In this document: positions 8,985-50,774 of the stretch, one piece after another
Layout of the letters: every line of letters begins with the position of its first letter
Numbering within the stretch: position 1 is the stretch's first letter
Origin: Magnetovibrio blakemorei
Lineage (GTDB): Bacteria > Pseudomonadota > Alphaproteobacteria > Rhodospirillales > Magnetovibrionaceae
Assembly: GCF_001746755.1 (NCBI RefSeq)
Contig: NZ_MCGG01000008.1
Location: 62,001 to 126,000 of the forward strand
Reading direction: 5' to 3'
DNA: 64,000 nucleotides
Notes under the pieces: model-generated
Seen by the model: the letters and a program-made list of their open reading frames with translations, nothing else
Databases searched by the model: none
What the model was told of the DNA's origin: nothing
Made by a program: the position numbers and the translations under genes

Positions 8985-11792
8985 ATGGCGAATCACTCTT
9001 CCCTCCCGCCCGAAATCCTGATGCCCGAGACGTTTGCCTTGGTCGCAGGGGTGCGCGCGGCTTATGTGGTTGAGCCCACCGGCGAAGTGGTGTCACTGAG
9101 CTTTACGGATGCCGCCCGGCGTCTCAAATCCGGACCACCGCCAGTGCTCTGCCACGCCCGCCAGACGGCGGCGCGCCTCAAGATGGATGGTCTGCGCGGC
9201 TTTGATGTGTTGGAGTTGTTTGCCTTCATTGAGCCCGCCCGCTTTTGTCTGCCAACGCCGGGCGGCGTGGCCCAAGCGTTGGGTTTGAGTGTACCGCGCG
9301 GTCATGAAGACGAAGCCATCAGTTTGCTCACCAGCGCGCGCACCTTGTTGGAACGCCTGAGCGCCCGGCTCACATCCGACGCCCAAGACGCCCGCCAAGC
9401 GGCGCGTTTGGCCCACGCCATGAACGCGGGCGGATGGCCGTGGGCACGCCCGGTATTGGCCGCCCTAGGTGAAGGCGACACACCCCATTCGCAAAACGCG
9501 GCGCGGGCCTTTCGCGTGTGGGAAGGTCTGCCCAAGTGGGAAGAACGCGGCGGCGAAACGCCCCCCGGCGACGCCCCCGTCAGCCCCCAGGAAGCCCGCC
9601 AACGCTTAGATGCGTTGCTGGCGGGCGGGCGGGCGGAAAAACGCACCGAGCAGCAAATGTTCACCGCGGGCGTCACCGCCGCGTTTGATCCCTGCGACAT
9701 TCCGGGCCAGCCTCGGTTCGTGTTGGCCGAAGCCGGAACCGGGGTCGGCAAGACTTTGGGCTACGTCGCCCCCGCCAGCGTGTGGGCGGATAAAAACGCC
9801 GGTGCGGTGTGGCTATCGACTTACACCCGCAACCTGCAACGCCAGCTGGACGGCGAAATGGATCGCCTTTATCCCGATCCGGAGCAGAAAAAACGCTACG
9901 TGGTGGTCCGCAAGGGCCGGGAAAATTATTTCTGCCTGCTGAATTTCCAAGAGGCCCTAAGCCGTTTGCAAATGCGCCCCGACGGGGCCATCGCCTTGGG
10001 GCTGGTGGCCAGGTGGGCCGGCAAGACGCGGGACGGTGACATGATCGGTGGCGACTTTCCCGCTTGGGTCGGCAGTTTGCTGGGTCGGGGCCTGACGGCA
10101 GAGCTCACCGACACCAAGGGCGAATGCACCTATACGCTCTGTGAACACTTCAACCGCTGTTTTATCGAACATTCCAAGCGCCGCGCCAAACGCGCCAAGC
10201 TGGTGATCGCCAACCATGCGTTGGTGATGATCCAGACCGCCTTGAACGCGGGCGGCGGCGCGGCAGCGGAAGGCGGCGCACCGACGCGGTTTGTTTTCGA
10301 CGAAGGCCACCATGTCTTCGACGCCGCCGATTCCGCCTTTGCTGCGCATCTGTCAGGACAAGAAACCGCCGATCTCAGGCGCTGGATTTTGGGCGCGGAA
10401 GAAGGCCGCCGAACGCGCTCGAAAGGCTTGAAAGCCCGCCTCGACGATTTAACCGCAGACGATGAAAAGCTCGACCATTTGGTTCAAGATGTGCGCCAAG
10501 CGGCCCACGTGTTGCCCGGTCCCAACTGGCGCACACGGCTCAACGACACCGTCTCACAAGCCCCCTCGTCCGGTGCTGCGGAAGCGTTTTTGGCCTTTGT
10601 GCGCCAGCAGGTTTATGCCCGCGACAAAGGGTCTGATGGCGGCTATTCGCTGGAATGCGAGGCCTTTCCCCCTATTGACGGCTTGTTGGACGTGGCGCTG
10701 GAATTGGACCAGGCGCTGATGACCTTGGAAAACCCCATCAAGGGGCTGATCAAGCGCTTGCTCAACAAACTGGACGACGAAGCGGTGGAGCTGGAAACGT
10801 CCGAGCGCACCCGCATCGAAGCCTTAGCGGGCAGCTTAGAACGCCGCGCCTTGTTGCCCGTTCAAGCGTGGCGCTCCATGCTCAAGGCACTGCGCGAAAC
10901 GCCTGTTTTGGATGGAAATGCCACACCGGAAAAGCCCAGCGACTTCGTCGATTGGATGAGTGTCGAACGCACCCACGGGCGCGATTTGGATGTCGGCCTC
11001 AACCGCCATTGGATCGACCCCACCAAACCGTTCGCGGCCGCCATGAGCCAGACCGCCCAGGGTGTCTTGATCACCTCGGCTACCTTGCGCGACGAAGGCG
11101 AATGGACCAGCGCCGATCAGCGCACCGGGGCCAAGCACATGCAAAGCCCCATCGTTTACGTGGCGCAAAAATCACCGTTTGATTACGCCCGCCAGACGCG
11201 CATTTTGGTGGTCACGGACTTAAACAAAAATTCCGTCAGCCAAGTGTCGGCGGCGTATCGGGAATTGTTTTTGGCCGCGGGCGGCGGCGGCTTGGGGCTG
11301 TTCACCGCCATCCACCGGTTGCGCGCTGTGCACGAACGCATTGCGCCCGATTTGGACCAACAAGGCTTTCCGCTCTATGCCCAACACATCGATCCGTTGG
11401 ACGTCGGCACGCTGGTGGACATCTTCAAGGCCGAGCCCAATTCGTGCCTGTTCGGCACCGATGCGGTGCGCGACGGCGTGGACGTTCCGGGCCAATCGTT
11501 GCGTTTGATCGTGTTTGACCGGGTGCCGTGGCCGCGCCCCGACATCTTGATGCGGGCCCGGCGCGATCACTTTGGCGGGCGGGCGTATGACGAAATGCTC
11601 ACGCGCCTGAAACTCAAACAAGCCTACGGGCGTTTGGTGCGCAAAAAAGACGATCAGGGCGTGTTTGTCATGCTGGACAGCGCCCTGCCGTCGCGCATCG
11701 CCACAGCGTTTCCCAAGGATGTGGAAATCCAACGGGTTGGTTTGAAGGACGCGATTTTAGAAACAAAGGCTTTTTTGTCCGATCACGCTTGA
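8985..11792 (+). CDS. DinG/Rad3-type ATP-dependent DNA helicase with Fe-S cluster
   Basis: A 935-residue superfamily 2 helicase. An N-terminal extension of about 230 residues precedes Walker A (GTGVGKT, about 250-257). Four cysteines that could hold a [4Fe-4S] cluster follow (one in ENYFC, then GEC, TLC and NRC). The DEAH box is DEGHH at about 438. The C-terminal domain has the Rad3 motifs FGTDAVRDGVDVPG and LKQAYGRLVR. DinG-like enzymes unwind 5' to 3' and resolve R-loops and G-quadruplexes. The N-terminal part matches the ATP-dependent helicase form common in alphaproteobacteria rather than E. coli DinG. Confidence 0.88.
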   Translation: MANHSSLPPEILMPETFALVAGVRAAYVVEPTGEVVSLSFTDAARRLKSGPPPVLCHARQTAARLKMDGLRGFDVLELFAFIEPARFCLPTPGGVAQALGLSVPRGHEDEAISLLTSARTLLERLSARLTSDAQDARQAARLAHAMNAGGWPWARPVLAALGEGDTPHSQNAARAFRVWEGLPKWEERGGETPPGDAPVSPQEARQRLDALLAGGRAEKRTEQQMFTAGVTAAFDPCDIPGQPRFVLAEAGTGVGKTLGYVAPASVWADKNAGAVWLSTYTRNLQRQLDGEMDRLYPDPEQKKRYVVVRKGRENYFCLLNFQEALSRLQMRPDGAIALGLVARWAGKTRDGDMIGGDFPAWVGSLLGRGLTAELTDTKGECTYTLCEHFNRCFIEHSKRRAKRAKLVIANHALVMIQTALNAGGGAAAEGGAPTRFVFDEGHHVFDAADSAFAAHLSGQETADLRRWILGAEEGRRTRSKGLKARLDDLTADDEKLDHLVQDVRQAAHVLPGPNWRTRLNDTVSQAPSSGAAEAFLAFVRQQVYARDKGSDGGYSLECEAFPPIDGLLDVALELDQALMTLENPIKGLIKRLLNKLDDEAVELETSERTRIEALAGSLERRALLPVQAWRSMLKALRETPVLDGNATPEKPSDFVDWMSVERTHGRDLDVGLNRHWIDPTKPFAAAMSQTAQGVLITSATLRDEGEWTSADQRTGAKHMQSPIVYVAQKSPFDYARQTRILVVTDLNKNSVSQVSAAYRELFLAAGGGGLGLFTAIHRLRAVHERIAPDLDQQGFPLYAQHIDPLDVGTLVDIFKAEPNSCLFGTDAVRDGVDVPGQSLRLIVFDRVPWPRPDILMRARRDHFGGRAYDEMLTRLKLKQAYGRLVRKKDDQGVFVMLDSALPSRIATAFPKDVEIQRVGLKDAILETKAFLSDHA

Positions 11793-42968: not shown

Positions 42969-44171
42969 TTACTGGTCTTTCTTTAGGCTACCAACCGCTA
43001 TTATCGCGAGTCGCTCGGACGCTTGGCGGAGCGGATCATCCAACAAGTGCGCATAGCGCGAAGTGGTTTTAGCCTGCGTGTGACCAAGCAGTGCGCCAAT
43101 CACCGGCAGACTTTCACCTGACGACACCAGCAAACTCGCAAAGGTGTGGCGCAGGTCGTGGATGCGGACTTCTTTGATTTTGGCGCGTTTGCAGACGGCA
43201 GCCCAGAAGGTGCGGATTGTGGTCATGTGGCCTTGCTGGCTTTTGCCGGGAAACACCCATTCCGATTTGTCGCGCTTCTTGCCGGACTGTTGCTTCTTAA
43301 ACCGAGCTTTAAGCAGATCAACCACGGGCGGCGAGAGTGGCACGCGGTGGATTTTGTTTTGCTTCGTGGTCGCGGCGGGCTTCACCCACACGCCCGCTTT
43401 CAAATCCAAATGATCCCAACGCATGCACAGCACTTCACCCACGCGTGCGCCGGTGAGCATGAGGACGCGCACCACATCGGCTGAATTTTGCGACGGGCTT
43501 TCATCGAGCGCCGTTTGCAGCATTTTGATCTCATCAAGCGTCAGGTAGCGCTCGCGACCATGCTCGACATTGCGTTCAATGCCGAGCGCCGGGTTCTCGC
43601 TCACCAGCCCCCAACGGATGGCCGTGGTGAAGATGGCCGAGCACAGCGACACGGTGCGGTTTGCGGCCACCGGGAATTTTTTCGACACCTTGTGGTGCAT
43701 GTCTTCGATTTGGCGCTGGGTGATTTCCGTCAGGCGCTTATTGCCCAATTGGGGCAGCACATGATTGTCGAGCAACAGGCGGCGATGCTTAAGGGTGCTA
43801 TTGCGGTTCTTGCGCGCCGCCACGTCTTCTAGCCAGCGCGTCGCAAAATCCTTAAACAACGGGTTCTGATCTTCACTGACGTTTTTCGCCTCACGACGCT
43901 CAGTCGCGGGATCACCGCCTAAGTCTGCCGCCGAGATCAACTTGCTCGCTTCTCTGCGCGCCGTATCCAAGGCCACACGATCACAGCGCCCAACCGCCAT
44001 ACGGCGTTCCTTGCCACCGCGCACCTTAAACTGAGCAACGTAGGTTTTGACGCCAGCCCGCGAAACCCGCACGCCGAACCCCTTGAGCACAGAGTCCCAG
44101 GTGAAGGCTTGAGCCTGTTCAGGTGTCGGCAGATTTTCGACGACCGTCTTTGTAAGTTTGATACGTGCCAT
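42969..44171 (-). CDS. Tyrosine-type site-specific integrase
   Basis: A 400-residue integrase of the P4/DUF4102 class. The N-terminal arm-binding domain covers about 1-95, and a core-binding helix region follows at about 100-200. The catalytic domain has Arg in LTGARVGEVL, HDLRHTFASLL with His and Arg, a later His in LLGHTQAKTT and Tyr in SRYAHL. It lies 191 bases from the intact tRNA-Gly gene on the same strand, the usual arrangement for tRNA-targeting islands. Confidence 0.94.
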   Translation of the reverse strand: MARIKLTKTVVENLPTPEQAQAFTWDSVLKGFGVRVSRAGVKTYVAQFKVRGGKERRMAVGRCDRVALDTARREASKLISAADLGGDPATERREAKNVSEDQNPLFKDFATRWLEDVAARKNRNSTLKHRRLLLDNHVLPQLGNKRLTEITQRQIEDMHHKVSKKFPVAANRTVSLCSAIFTTAIRWGLVSENPALGIERNVEHGRERYLTLDEIKMLQTALDESPSQNSADVVRVLMLTGARVGEVLCMRWDHLDLKAGVWVKPAATTKQNKIHRVPLSPPVVDLLKARFKKQQSGKKRDKSEWVFPGKSQQGHMTTIRTFWAAVCKRAKIKEVRIHDLRHTFASLLVSSGESLPVIGALLGHTQAKTTSRYAHLLDDPLRQASERLAIIAVGSLKKDQ

Positions 44172-44361: not shown

Positions 44362-44409
44362 ATGGAGCGGGTGAAGGGAATCGAACCCTCGTCGTAAGCT
44401 TGGGAAGCT
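44362..44409. repeat. attR: tRNA-Gly 3' end
   Basis: Forty-eight bases identical to 36097-36144; they form the 3' part of the intact tRNA-Gly gene. Confidence 0.93.
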
Positions 44410-44436
44410 TCTGCTCTACCATTGAGCTACACCCGC
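44363..44436 (-). tRNA. tRNA-Gly (anticodon CCC)
   Basis: A 74-base tRNA including encoded CCA. The acceptor stem GCGGGTG pairs with CACCCGC, the D arm is GCTC...GAGC, the anticodon loop is TTCCCAA giving CCC, and the T arm contains GGTTCGATTCC. The anticodon stem has one G.A mismatch at its base. It closely resembles other Gly-CCC tRNAs. The 3' half is the integration site of the island. Confidence 0.95.
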
Positions 44437-46925: not shown

Positions 46926-47885
46926 ATGCCTGAAGGTGCCCATGACCACACACCGCTGGATTCCGCAAAGTTCCAAAACCCGTTGATCACGGCGACAGGT
47001 GAAATGCGGGCTTCGGTGTCACTCAGCGCGCTCAGAACCTTGTGGTTTAACACCGGAAGCTTGTGCAACATCACCTGTGCCAATTGCTATATGGATTCAA
47101 GCCCCAGCAACGACGATTTGGCCTATCTGGGCCTGGATCATGTGCTCGCCTATCTGGAAGAAATCCGCACTGAAGGCTTAAACGTTCCCGAAATCGGTTT
47201 TACCGGGGGCGAACCGTTCATGAACCGGGATCTCATCAACATGCTCGAAGCCGTGTTGGAGCGCGGACATAGCGCCTTGGTGCTCACCAATGCCATGAAA
47301 CCGATGTGGCAAAAGCGCGCGGCCTTGTCCGCTTTGGCGGATCGTTTTGTCATGTCGGGTGTGAAAATCCGCGTGTCCGTTGATCATTACACCCAACGCG
47401 CCCACGAAAAAGAACGCGGTGCAGGCACTTGGGCCCCCATGGAAAAGGGCATCCAGTGGCTTGCCGCGCAGGGTTTTTCCGTTTCCATCGCCGGGCGCAC
47501 CCTGTGGAATGAAGCCGAGGACCAGGCACGACGCGGCTATCAGCAGTTGTGCGACGCATGGGGCTTGTCTATTGACTGCAGCGACCCGGCGCGTTTGGTG
47601 CTTTTCCCCGAAATGGATGCGGCCGACGACGTCCCCGAAATCACCACCCGTTGCTGGGACCTCTTGAAAGTGCGCCCGGACGCCATGATGTGTGCCACGT
47701 CCCGCATGGTCGTGCTGCACAAAGGCGATGCCGGACCGCGCATCGCGCCATGCACCTTGCTGCCTTATGATCGGCGCTTCGATATGGGGGCGCTTTTGGT
47801 CGAGGCTCACACGCCCGTGGCGCTCAATCACCCCCATTGCGCCAAATTCTGCGTTTTGGGCGGGGCCTCTTGTTCTGTGATTTAA
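46926..47885 (+). CDS. Radical SAM protein with additional C-terminal cysteines
   Basis: A 319-residue radical SAM enzyme. The cluster motif CNITCANCY is at about 49-57, and the FTGGEPFMN motif follows at about 95. The end has CAKFCVLGGASC, cysteines that could bind an auxiliary cluster. The substrate is not recognisable. Its last 60 bases are repeated at 50571, beyond the flagellin-like gene, so the region just after it has been rearranged. Confidence 0.82.
   Translation: MPEGAHDHTPLDSAKFQNPLITATGEMRASVSLSALRTLWFNTGSLCNITCANCYMDSSPSNDDLAYLGLDHVLAYLEEIRTEGLNVPEIGFTGGEPFMNRDLINMLEAVLERGHSALVLTNAMKPMWQKRAALSALADRFVMSGVKIRVSVDHYTQRAHEKERGAGTWAPMEKGIQWLAAQGFSVSIAGRTLWNEAEDQARRGYQQLCDAWGLSIDCSDPARLVLFPEMDAADDVPEITTRCWDLLKVRPDAMMCATSRMVVLHKGDAGPRIAPCTLLPYDRRFDMGALLVEAHTPVALNHPHCAKFCVLGGASCSVI
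47821..47884 (+). repeat. 3' end of radical SAM gene, copy A of a flanking duplication
   Basis: Matches 50571-50634 with a few differences, mostly silent in the shared reading frame. Confidence 0.85.
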
Positions 47886-48222: not shown

Positions 48223-48783
48223 ATGTCGAATATTTCATTGAACGGTGCTGAACGAAAAGCGTTGCTCGCCCTGAAGCAGACAACGGGTCTTCAGGAACGC
48301 ACGCAAAATCGACTTGCGACAGGCTTGAAAATTGAAGGTGCCATTGATGGCGCCGAAGCTTATTACAAATCAAAATCCTTATCAGATCGCTCTGCCGACT
48401 TTGTGGAGCGCATGAGTGACATAGACCAAGCCATCAGTCTGATCCTGGCGACGCAAGAGGCGTTAAGTTCTGTCACCACAGTTTTGAAGCAGATGAAGGG
48501 TGTCGTTCTTGCCGCCACAGATTCTGATGGCGCTGACACCACTCAATTCGACGAAATGATCAACCAGATCAACCTTCTTATTGGTGATGCGTCCTATCAA
48601 GGCACATTTAATTGGCTAACACGCCCCCCCTCGGTGAAACGGTCAAAACGTCCTCCCACACAGTTGATTTCAGTGAGAAAACGAACAGCAAAGTTGTCAT
48701 CAATGGCAACTACTTGGGTTCCAGCTACTATTTATCTAACGGATCATCGAAGCTGTTGCCGAACACGGCGGGCGATAGCATGA
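48223..48783 (+). CDS. Flagellin-like protein, N-terminal part (frame broken)
   Basis: The first about 130 residues match flagellin D0/D1: SNISLNGAERKALLALKQ, RLATGLKIEGAIDGAEAYY, DIDQAISLILATQEALSSV and KQMKGVVLAATD are in canonical order, and INLLIGDASYQGTF stands where flagellins have the TEFNGxxLL segment. After about residue 130 the frame becomes meaningless, and the homologous sequence goes on in another frame from 48612. A run of seven C (48624-48630) lies at the switch point. There is no signal peptide, as expected for a flagellar export substrate. Confidence 0.78.
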   Translation: MSNISLNGAERKALLALKQTTGLQERTQNRLATGLKIEGAIDGAEAYYKSKSLSDRSADFVERMSDIDQAISLILATQEALSSVTTVLKQMKGVVLAATDSDGADTTQFDEMINQINLLIGDASYQGTFNWLTRPPSVKRSKRPPTQLISVRKRTAKLSSMATTWVPATIYLTDHRSCCRTRRAIA

Positions 48784-50390
48784 ACGCCTCTGGTGGCACC
48801 GGTCCGATCAATGCCGATGGTGGGGAGTTTCAAGTCAACACCACAACGACAGGTAACCAGCATGACCCCAAAGTTGCGGGGCTAACTGGCGGTGGCTCGG
48901 TTGTGGTCTGGGTTGATGACAGCGGTGTTGATACAAGCGGCATTGGGGTTCTGGCACAGATCTATGACAACAGTGGTAACGCTGTTGGAGGTGAATTTGT
49001 CGTCAACACCTCCGTTGCTATAACGCAACAAAAACCCTCCGTCGTCGCACTCAGCGGTGGAGGATTTGCTGTCTCATGGGAAGACTTCACGGGTGTAACC
49101 CGTATCAATGCCCAGGTGTTTGATGCAAGCGGCAACACAGTGGGTGGTGAAATTGTCTCCGCATCCGGTACGACAACGGCAACCGATCCTTCCATCGGTG
49201 CGACTGCCGATGGAAATTTTGTTATCTCATGGGTCGACGGCGGCGACATCATAGCCCGCCAGTATGATTCCAGCGGTTCTGCCATGGCCGCCAAGTTTAC
49301 CGTGAACACGGCGACGGCTGGTGCTCAGGATCGGACGTTTGTTACGGGTCTCACGGGCGGCGGATATGTGATCACATGGACTGATGCAAATGCTTTAGAC
49401 GGAAATGGACGAGGCACCTTTGCCCAGAGGTATGATGCCAGTGGCGTTGCCCAAGGCGGCCAATTCCAGGTCAATACGACCACTGCAAGCGACCAGTATC
49501 CATGGGATATTCAACCATTGTCCTCCGGTGGATTTGTCGTCACCTATACCGATGTCGGTGGGGCCGATGGAAATTCGCTCGGTGTATTTGGACAAATCTA
49601 TGATTCTTCTGGCAATACGGTGGGCAATGAGTTTCAGGTCAACGCCACAACGACCGCTGGCCAGCAGGACTATGTGCGAACGGCTGCCATGAACGATGGC
49701 GGTTTCATTGCCGTTTATGCGGCACAAAATTTGGATTCCGGCGGATGGGGTGTCGCTGGGCAGCGTTTTGATTCCAGCGGCAATACAGATGGGGCCGAGT
49801 TCCAAATCAATACGACGGAAACGGCTGATCAGTGGTTGCCTGCAATCGCCTCCGTCGACAACGGTGGCGGCTTTATCGTCACATGGGAAGACACCAACGC
49901 AACGGATGGAGCAGGAAAAGGCATTTTTGCCCAGCGTTATTCACTTGGCGTTACCGCAGGCGTTATCGCAAGTGGCGCCGTCTCTTCTGTGAATTATACG
50001 ACAGGTGTCGTCACGGCCACCATCGGTGGAAAAGAACAGACCCTAACGATGAACAAACAAGGTTTGGGGGTCGCCCAAGCTTGGTACTACCAGGACTTCA
50101 GCACCAGCGCGGGTCGGGAAGCGGCATTGTCAGACCTCAATGACGCGATCTCGACCACCCGTTCAAAATCGGCAGGTTTTGGCGTCAACTTCAACCTGCT
50201 CCAGATACGCAATGACTTCGCTGATAAATATACGAACACCCTAAAAAGTGGTGCTGGCAAACTTGTTTTGGCAGATATTAATGAAGAAGGTGCAAATCTG
50301 TTGGCCCTTCAAACGCGCTCTCAACTCGGTGTGAATGCATTATCATTTCTTGGTCAGGCGACGCAGAGCATTCTCAAACTATTCCGCTAG
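48612..50390 (+). CDS. Flagellin-like protein, propeller repeats and C-terminal part
   Basis: This frame (opened by a TTG, so its own start is doubtful) continues the flagellin-like gene. Residues 70-446 are seven repeats of 47-56 residues with pattern GGxFxVNTTT...GGGFVVxWxD...GxxAQxYDxSGNxV, which predicts a seven-bladed beta-propeller. Residues about 510-592 are the flagellin C-terminal helix (GFGVNFNLLQIRNDFADKY, then EEGANLLALQTRSQLG and SILKLFR). Joined to the N-terminal frame, the protein would be about 720 residues. Confidence 0.8.
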   Translation: MANTPPLGETVKTSSHTVDFSEKTNSKVVINGNYLGSSYYLSNGSSKLLPNTAGDSMNASGGTGPINADGGEFQVNTTTTGNQHDPKVAGLTGGGSVVVWVDDSGVDTSGIGVLAQIYDNSGNAVGGEFVVNTSVAITQQKPSVVALSGGGFAVSWEDFTGVTRINAQVFDASGNTVGGEIVSASGTTTATDPSIGATADGNFVISWVDGGDIIARQYDSSGSAMAAKFTVNTATAGAQDRTFVTGLTGGGYVITWTDANALDGNGRGTFAQRYDASGVAQGGQFQVNTTTASDQYPWDIQPLSSGGFVVTYTDVGGADGNSLGVFGQIYDSSGNTVGNEFQVNATTTAGQQDYVRTAAMNDGGFIAVYAAQNLDSGGWGVAGQRFDSSGNTDGAEFQINTTETADQWLPAIASVDNGGGFIVTWEDTNATDGAGKGIFAQRYSLGVTAGVIASGAVSSVNYTTGVVTATIGGKEQTLTMNKQGLGVAQAWYYQDFSTSAGREAALSDLNDAISTTRSKSAGFGVNFNLLQIRNDFADKYTNTLKSGAGKLVLADINEEGANLLALQTRSQLGVNALSFLGQATQSILKLFR

Positions 50391-50774
50391 TTATCCGGAA
50401 CAGAAATCAGACACAAACGGTCAAAGCAAATTTATTTATTCGCCTAAAAGAAGGCCAACGGGAACCTGATTTTTTTCAATAGGTTGCACTTCCGGAAGTG
50501 GGCAAACATGCCCAACCCACCAGGTATATGAAACCGCATCCAGAGTCGTTTTTGGGGTCCTAATTCGGGGCGTTCAATCACCCCCATTGCGCAAAATTCT
50601 GCGTTTTGGGCGGGGCCTCCTGTTCATCAATTTAATTGAGGAAACTCTAATATATTAGCGATCAGCTCTGGACAATGAACATAAAAGGCCCAGATAATAG
50701 ATGTTGAATGTTTATAATGTGCTCCGCGCACATGCGTTGCGCCCGGTGGAGCTAAGATCAAGAGAGAGCCTATT
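50391..50774. other. Intergenic region with copy B of the radical SAM 3' end
   Basis: A 384-base gap. It holds short palindromes (CACTTCCGGAAGTG near 50488) and copy B of the duplicated radical SAM gene end at 50571. No complete gene. Confidence 0.6.
50571..50634 (+). repeat. 3' end of radical SAM gene, copy B of a flanking duplication
   Basis: Encodes FNHPHCAKFCVLGGASCSSI plus stop, nearly the same C terminus as the gene at 46926. Differences are mostly silent (GCC/GCA, TCT/TCC), so it is a diverged homologous end rather than a recent exact copy. The gene body upstream is absent. Confidence 0.85.

Follow-up and report, generated by a model that had tools for sequence, protein, structure and literature searches.

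A flagellin family with a predicted seven-bladed, CylK-type propeller between its conserved ends, represented by a frameshifted and an intact copy in Magnetovibrio blakemorei

Magnetovibrio blakemorei encodes two members of a small flagellin family in which a seven-bladed beta-propeller of the type known from CylK is predicted to sit between the two halves of domain D1. On balance, and with modest confidence, we posit that these proteins are exported, displayed on the flagellar filament, held together by calcium and used for binding, and that the copy in the window (the whole analysed stretch of 64,000 nucleotides) is inactive and its paralogue on contig C17 functional. The evidence comprises the layout of the genes, the predicted structure of the repeats, their distribution among other proteins and the comparison of gene order between related genomes.

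The window gene is divided over two overlapping open reading frames (ORFs) in different frames that together span 48223-50390 (Table 1). The first (48223-48783, 186 aa) matches Pfam Flagellin_N over residues 4-125 with 42.9 bits against a cut-off of 26.6, and the second (48612-50390, 592 aa) matches Flagellin_C over residues 509-591 with 29.2 bits against a cut-off of 23. Within the second ORF a blade profile finds exactly seven repeats (residues 72-450), spaced start to start by 56, 55, 46, 55, 56 and 56 residues. Both the flagellin-like ends and the seven repeats claimed in an earlier sequence-only reading are thus borne out on the window gene. The layout is beyond chance, since the second ORF aligns along its length (47–51% identity) with three further flagellins built in the same way, each containing seven repeats: the C17 copy and one protein each from the genomes G007 and G134. 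By eye, a good ribosome-binding site is absent upstream of the window copy, which counts against our preferred explanation.

Table 1 Features of the propeller-flagellin gene and its insertion in the window
Feature	Position	Strand	Basis or remark
First copy of 70-base direct repeat	47816..47885	+	3' end of the gene 46926-47885, taken to be radical-SAM-like
Inserted stretch of ~2.75 kb holding the flagellin	47886..50635		Gene order in all five other genomes of the genus
N-terminal D0/D1 half of flagellin	48223..48609	+	Flagellin_N; tblastn of three relatives, frame 1; ORF continues to 48783, out of frame beyond ~48609
One-base shortfall between the two frames	48603..48612	+	Conserved L-A-N readable only in the second frame, from 48612
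Seven-C run, possible slippage site	48624..48630	+	Sole homopolymer longer than 5 in the gene
Second ORF: neck, propeller, neck, C-terminal D1/D0	48612..50390	+	Flagellin_C; AlphaFold2 model
Seven blade repeats	48825..49961	+	Starts 48825, 48993, 49158, 49296, 49461, 49629, 49797; blade profile, model
C-terminal flagellin helices	50136..50384	+	Flagellin_C match
Second copy of 70-base repeat	50566..50635	+	89% identical to the first; followed by a spacer like that of relatives

The two parts total 721 codons, and the earlier reading, which treated them as one joined protein of about 720 residues, passed over a real lesion: the halves lie in different frames, one base short. In tblastn, the three relatives' proteins align to the window in frame 1 as far as ~48609 and in frame 3 from 48612, with the frame-1 alignments extending slightly further. 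The motif L-A-N, where relatives have L/I-A/G-N, can be read in the second frame only, which places the lesion at ~48603-48612, before the seven-C run. With a base missing here, the window copy as sequenced cannot yield a whole flagellin, in contrast to the uninterrupted reading frames of C17, G007 and G134, and it is probably a frameshifted member of the family that has lost its function. An assembly or sequencing error in an intact gene would fit a single lesion in ~720 codons; we consider this unlikely, as the lesion site itself is not a long homopolymer and the surrounding motif, Y-Q-G-T-N-L in relatives, is altered as well. A further possibility is that the copy is switched rather than dead, slippage in the seven-C run, either in the DNA or in the course of transcription or translation, restoring the frame in some cells. 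Consistent with this, the run is no more than ~25 bases from the frame change and is bracketed by the stops of both frames, the remainder of both ORFs is free of stops, and runs of seven C or seven G are rare (only 11 in the 128,403 bases examined of the M. blakemorei genome). We nevertheless judge such a switch improbable, because the L-A-N motif upstream of the run puts the lesion ahead of it, none of the three relatives has a seven-base run at that place, and homopolymer runs such as seven C are prone to sequencing error.

The reading of an inactivated window copy leaves C17 as the copy that would carry the function, and the window copy itself appears to have come with an insertion of ~2.75 kb. 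In all five congeneric genomes the radical-SAM-like gene is followed directly by genes that we take to be apaG- and folE-like, with no flagellin match between them; in the window these two genes come after the flagellin. The spacer behind the second copy of the 70-base repeat resembles the spacer that follows the radical-SAM-like gene in relatives. Combined, the congeneric gene order, the 70-base repeat and the spacer indicate that the flagellin entered as one stretch, and on this comparison it is an insertion at its site, absent from the congeneric genomes. The inserted stretch has a G+C content of 49.7%, compared with 55.0% for the window. The C17 copy, too, is missing from between its neighbours in all four congeneric genomes that have the adjacent GGDEF gene, the fifth giving weaker GGDEF matches only. 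The G134 gene is located between two direct copies (98% identical) of a 182-base repeat (L100:6732-6913 and 9417-9598) that has internal inverted repeats and occurs in six near-full copies in that genome, the flanking two included; no flanking repeat of that kind was found at C17 or G007. Separately, a presumed integrase-like gene (42969-44171, minus strand) adjoins a tRNA-Gly (44363-44436, minus strand) about 4 kb before the window flagellin, a pair with the look of an integrated element's end.

The intact paralogue in the M. blakemorei genome (G000:C17:114191-116401; locus L016:8192-10402, minus strand) has the same layout and a protein of 737 aa as listed, the true start of which, judged by eye, is probably a GTG, codon 9, preceded by AAAGGAGG. 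The G007 and G134 proteins measure 748 and 728 aa, respectively. A search for other alphaproteobacterial flagellins with the same repeat had been suggested in the sequence-only reading; once these three proteins had come to light, the idea of the insert as one of a kind was dropped. A query made of the C17 protein's C-terminal neck and helices singles out four places at E <= 3e-65 among 317 genomes of the order (two in M. blakemorei, one each in G007 and G134; next 1e-28), which, as far as the best 8 to 10 first-look candidates per genome show, places the family in three of the 317. A weaker member could escape such searches, as could a propeller inserted in a flagellin whose neck is unrelated. 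Among genomes sampled evenly from the class (385 genomes; next 5e-30) and phylum (398 genomes; next 1e-27), searched in the same way, the two M. blakemorei copies alone stand out.

Flagellin_N scores above its cut-off in C17 (32.4 bits), G007 (50.5) and G134 (32.9) as well. Flagellin_C remains below cut-off in C17 (18.1 bits) and G007 (16.4), and G134 has no match to it in Pfam at E 0.1, all of which counts against our preferred explanation. The ends of all three proteins align with flagellins despite these weak or absent matches, and those of C17 match the solved flagellins 7sn9, 8uxn and 9cef and five others in a search of PDB sequences, its C end reaching E 4e-14 (phmmer). A plain 391-aa flagellin is encoded on contig C15 of the M. 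blakemorei genome together with FlhA, the presence of which we count in favour of the proposed function. Main flagellar genes do not adjoin any of the four propeller-flagellin genes within the stretches examined, a further point against our explanation. Upstream of the genes, simple patterns for sigma-28 and sigma-54 yielded a single weak match, at G134, and sites resembling promoters or terminators exceed shuffles by about one standard deviation. Large flagellins with threonine-rich inserts lacking the blade repeat were also observed in relatives (L101:3719-7270, 1184 aa; L102:501-3263, 921 aa; L052:1-3021, 1007 of 1089 aa, cut by the stretch).

All four flagellin inserts have seven blades by the blade profile, and exactly seven units are present in 24 of the 34 distinct arrays of the repeat found in ORFs of at least 150 residues, a non-random sample from loci picked because they resemble the C17 or window protein. 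A closed ring would require just such constancy in number. One array has 14 units and reaches the locus end. The nine remaining arrays comprise four that run into a locus end (L027, L024, L043, L036), the two parts, of 3 and 2 units, of a region interrupted by a stop codon (L031; G035:C215), two of 4 and 2 units lying 43 residues apart in a 2597-aa protein (L018), and a lone pair (L037). Structure prediction, proposed earlier as a check on the propeller, agrees: both AlphaFold2 models show a seven-bladed propeller, with pLDDT by ten-residue blocks of 72-96 for the C17 protein and 72-94 for the second ORF of the window. Neck and helices are poorly modelled, which counts against our explanation; the whole-model means are 70.1 (C17) and 72.9 (window second ORF).

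By their titles, nearly all of the 50 Foldseek matches listed for each model are lyases, lectins, sialidases or arabinosidases, which we take to have propeller folds. The C-terminal domain of CylK superposes on the C17 model with Z 43.6 (361 residues, 2.2 A) and on the window model with Z 42.9 (356 residues, 2.2 A), and the other entries listed reach Z of at most 30.3 and 30.2, respectively; sialidases, WDR5-like propellers and lectins, at Z ~13 below CylK, were rejected as the closest fold. In the published comparison, other matches to the CylK propeller were at Z ~31, and the propeller itself is described as carrying internal loops of unusual length, together with calcium sites that bridge each blade junction (PMC8916777). 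As modelled, then, the blade repeats share CylK's version of the propeller fold. PDB searches with profiles and single sequences found no sequence link between the repeat and CylK, and nothing significant for the repeat in any solved structure, which leaves common ancestry and calcium sites hypothetical and counts against our explanation. Three conserved polar blade positions, N5, Q12 and D35, are retained in 26, 27 and 23 of the 28 blades of the four flagellins, with the window copy poorest (6/7, 6/7 and 5/7); by analogy, these are candidate calcium positions only. The sequence-only reading is therefore supported as to the flagellin ends and the seven-bladed propeller, and had not foreseen the frameshift, the intact paralogue, the insertion or the CylK-like fold.

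The blade repeat is not restricted to flagellins. In the scanned proteins it gives no match above cut-off to any family of Pfam or NCBIfam, and it recurs in two giant adhesin-like proteins of M. blakemorei, on contigs C22 (2597 aa) and C47 (1721 aa), and in long proteins of many among 60 relatives searched. A total of 126 plasmid records match, none with 80% of the query covered at one place; the 15 plasmid matches listed lie over the propeller and are annotated as calcium-binding, cadherin-like, Ig-like or hypothetical, among others. Phage records gave no match. The two giant proteins (L018:3036-10826 and L019:5806-10968) have near-identical N-terminal parts and a seven-blade array each, and the larger has a second, degenerate array of 4 and 2 units. 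A repeat widespread in the adhesin-like proteins of this group and lacking a family match is thereby given a fold through the match to CylK.

The ends of the four propeller flagellins form one clade (support 100) in a tree of 16 flagellins and their propellers form one clade (support 95) in a tree of 24 arrays, which makes a single fusion the simplest origin. Within the family the two trees disagree, and plain vertical descent was discarded on that account: the C17 ends group with G007 (93) and the C17 propeller groups with G134 (100). Identities follow the same division, C17 and G007 being 68% identical over the N half, 83% over the N neck, 73% over the C helices and 45% over the propeller, and C17 and G134 sharing 49%, 58%, 62% and 59% in these parts, climbing to 60-73% in blades 5 to 7. 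C17 has the appearance of a mosaic flagellin, its ends nearest G007 and its propeller nearest G134. On these conflicting groupings and identities, exchange of the propeller between family members is the most likely history.

Binding is the likeliest use of the propeller in view of the same module in adhesin-like proteins, and an adhesion or recognition role is suggested by analogy with those giant proteins. Flagellins exit the cell unfolded via a channel of ~2 nm, and since a closed propeller could not pass folded, we propose that the chain of the intact copies is exported unfolded by the flagellar machinery. The flagellin ends would then become part of the core of the filament and the propeller would fold outside the cell, calcium probably holding the blade junctions, to give one knob per such subunit that could bind a surface, a glycan or a neighbouring cell. 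The main rival explanation, which we regard as unlikely, is that the propeller acts simply as bulk on the outside, changing the stiffness, thickness or drag of the filament or shielding its core, and binds no ligand. Giant flagellins thicken filaments (PMC6248924), outer domains have been tied to motility in viscous media (PMC10256154), and the four flagellin propellers are just 44-59% identical, a divergence to be expected where no particular ligand is conserved. Seven blades in all four and the conserved polar positions fit a folded domain and are compatible with this rival too, whereas the other hosts of the module look like adhesins, which argues against it.

An enzyme displayed on the filament, CylK-like or glycan-cutting, has very little probability in our estimation. 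The nearest fold is that of CylK, the Foldseek lists include lyases, glycoside hydrolases and sialidases, and enzymatic flagellins exist (PMC5595980); however, the CylK active site lies between beta-roll and propeller and needs Arg105 of the beta-roll (PMC8916777), a beta-roll is not seen in these flagellins, and they have no Pfam or NCBIfam enzyme match above cut-off. Returning to the proposed binding propeller, RTX-type proteins fold or assemble outside the cell, where calcium is plentiful (PMC8916777). More tentatively, and at somewhat less than even confidence, we suggest that the propellers follow a similar calcium-gated logic, staying unfolded in the calcium-poor cytosol, passing the export channel and closing only outside. 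If true, calcium gating would explain the export of a propeller of ~380 residues, and the propeller would be a mobile, exchangeable display cassette for filaments. In the open-licence literature, judged mostly by titles and the first lines of abstracts, we recognised no description of calcium-dependent folding of flagellins.

Among known systems, the calcium-bearing seven-bladed C-terminal domain of CylK (PDB 7RON, 7ROO, 7FH6) is alike in fold over the whole propeller and differs in sequence (15% identity, no sequence match). CylK joins its propeller to a beta-roll and makes carbon-carbon bonds (PMC8916777), whereas here the propeller lies inside a flagellin; the CylK-type N-terminal calcium-binding beta-roll with Arg105 is absent, and flagellin ends and neck precede the propeller. 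The giant adhesin-like proteins (C22, C47 and the plasmid records) have the same blade repeat, mostly in arrays of seven, but are large, contain other domains and are not flagellins. Sialidases have a propeller fold as well. A 2017 survey of 26,587 flagellins listed 61 domain types in the hypervariable region; metalloproteases were among the most frequent, and a 'Sialidase' domain occurred in 10 cases (PMC5595980, its Table 1). In Pfam, as against the CDD used in the survey, we found no sialidase match at E 0.1 (C17, G007, G134) or E 1 (window). Given these cases, an inserted domain in a flagellin, perhaps even a propeller, is not new in kind. A search for propeller flagellins, domain-inserted flagellins or the motif in the open-licence literature, again judged mostly by title and abstract start, brought up no recognised CylK-type propeller flagellin. 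The giant flagellins of marine gammaproteobacteria likewise have a long insert between the D0/D1 halves, but exceed 1000 aa and have unrelated inserts (PMC6248924), compared with 728-748 aa here, below that size. Flagellinolysins are similar in having a large autonomous domain between flagellin ends, a patchy spread and both whole-gene and domain-alone insertion, and differ in that the insert is a metalloprotease, not a propeller (PMC5595980); the HExxH peptidase of that group has no match here in Pfam or NCBIfam, the insert consisting of seven propeller repeats. The propeller flagellins point to a route, other than that of the proteolytic flagellins, for bringing a large autonomous domain into the flagellar filament, and pose the question of how a closed propeller passes through a channel for unfolded chains.
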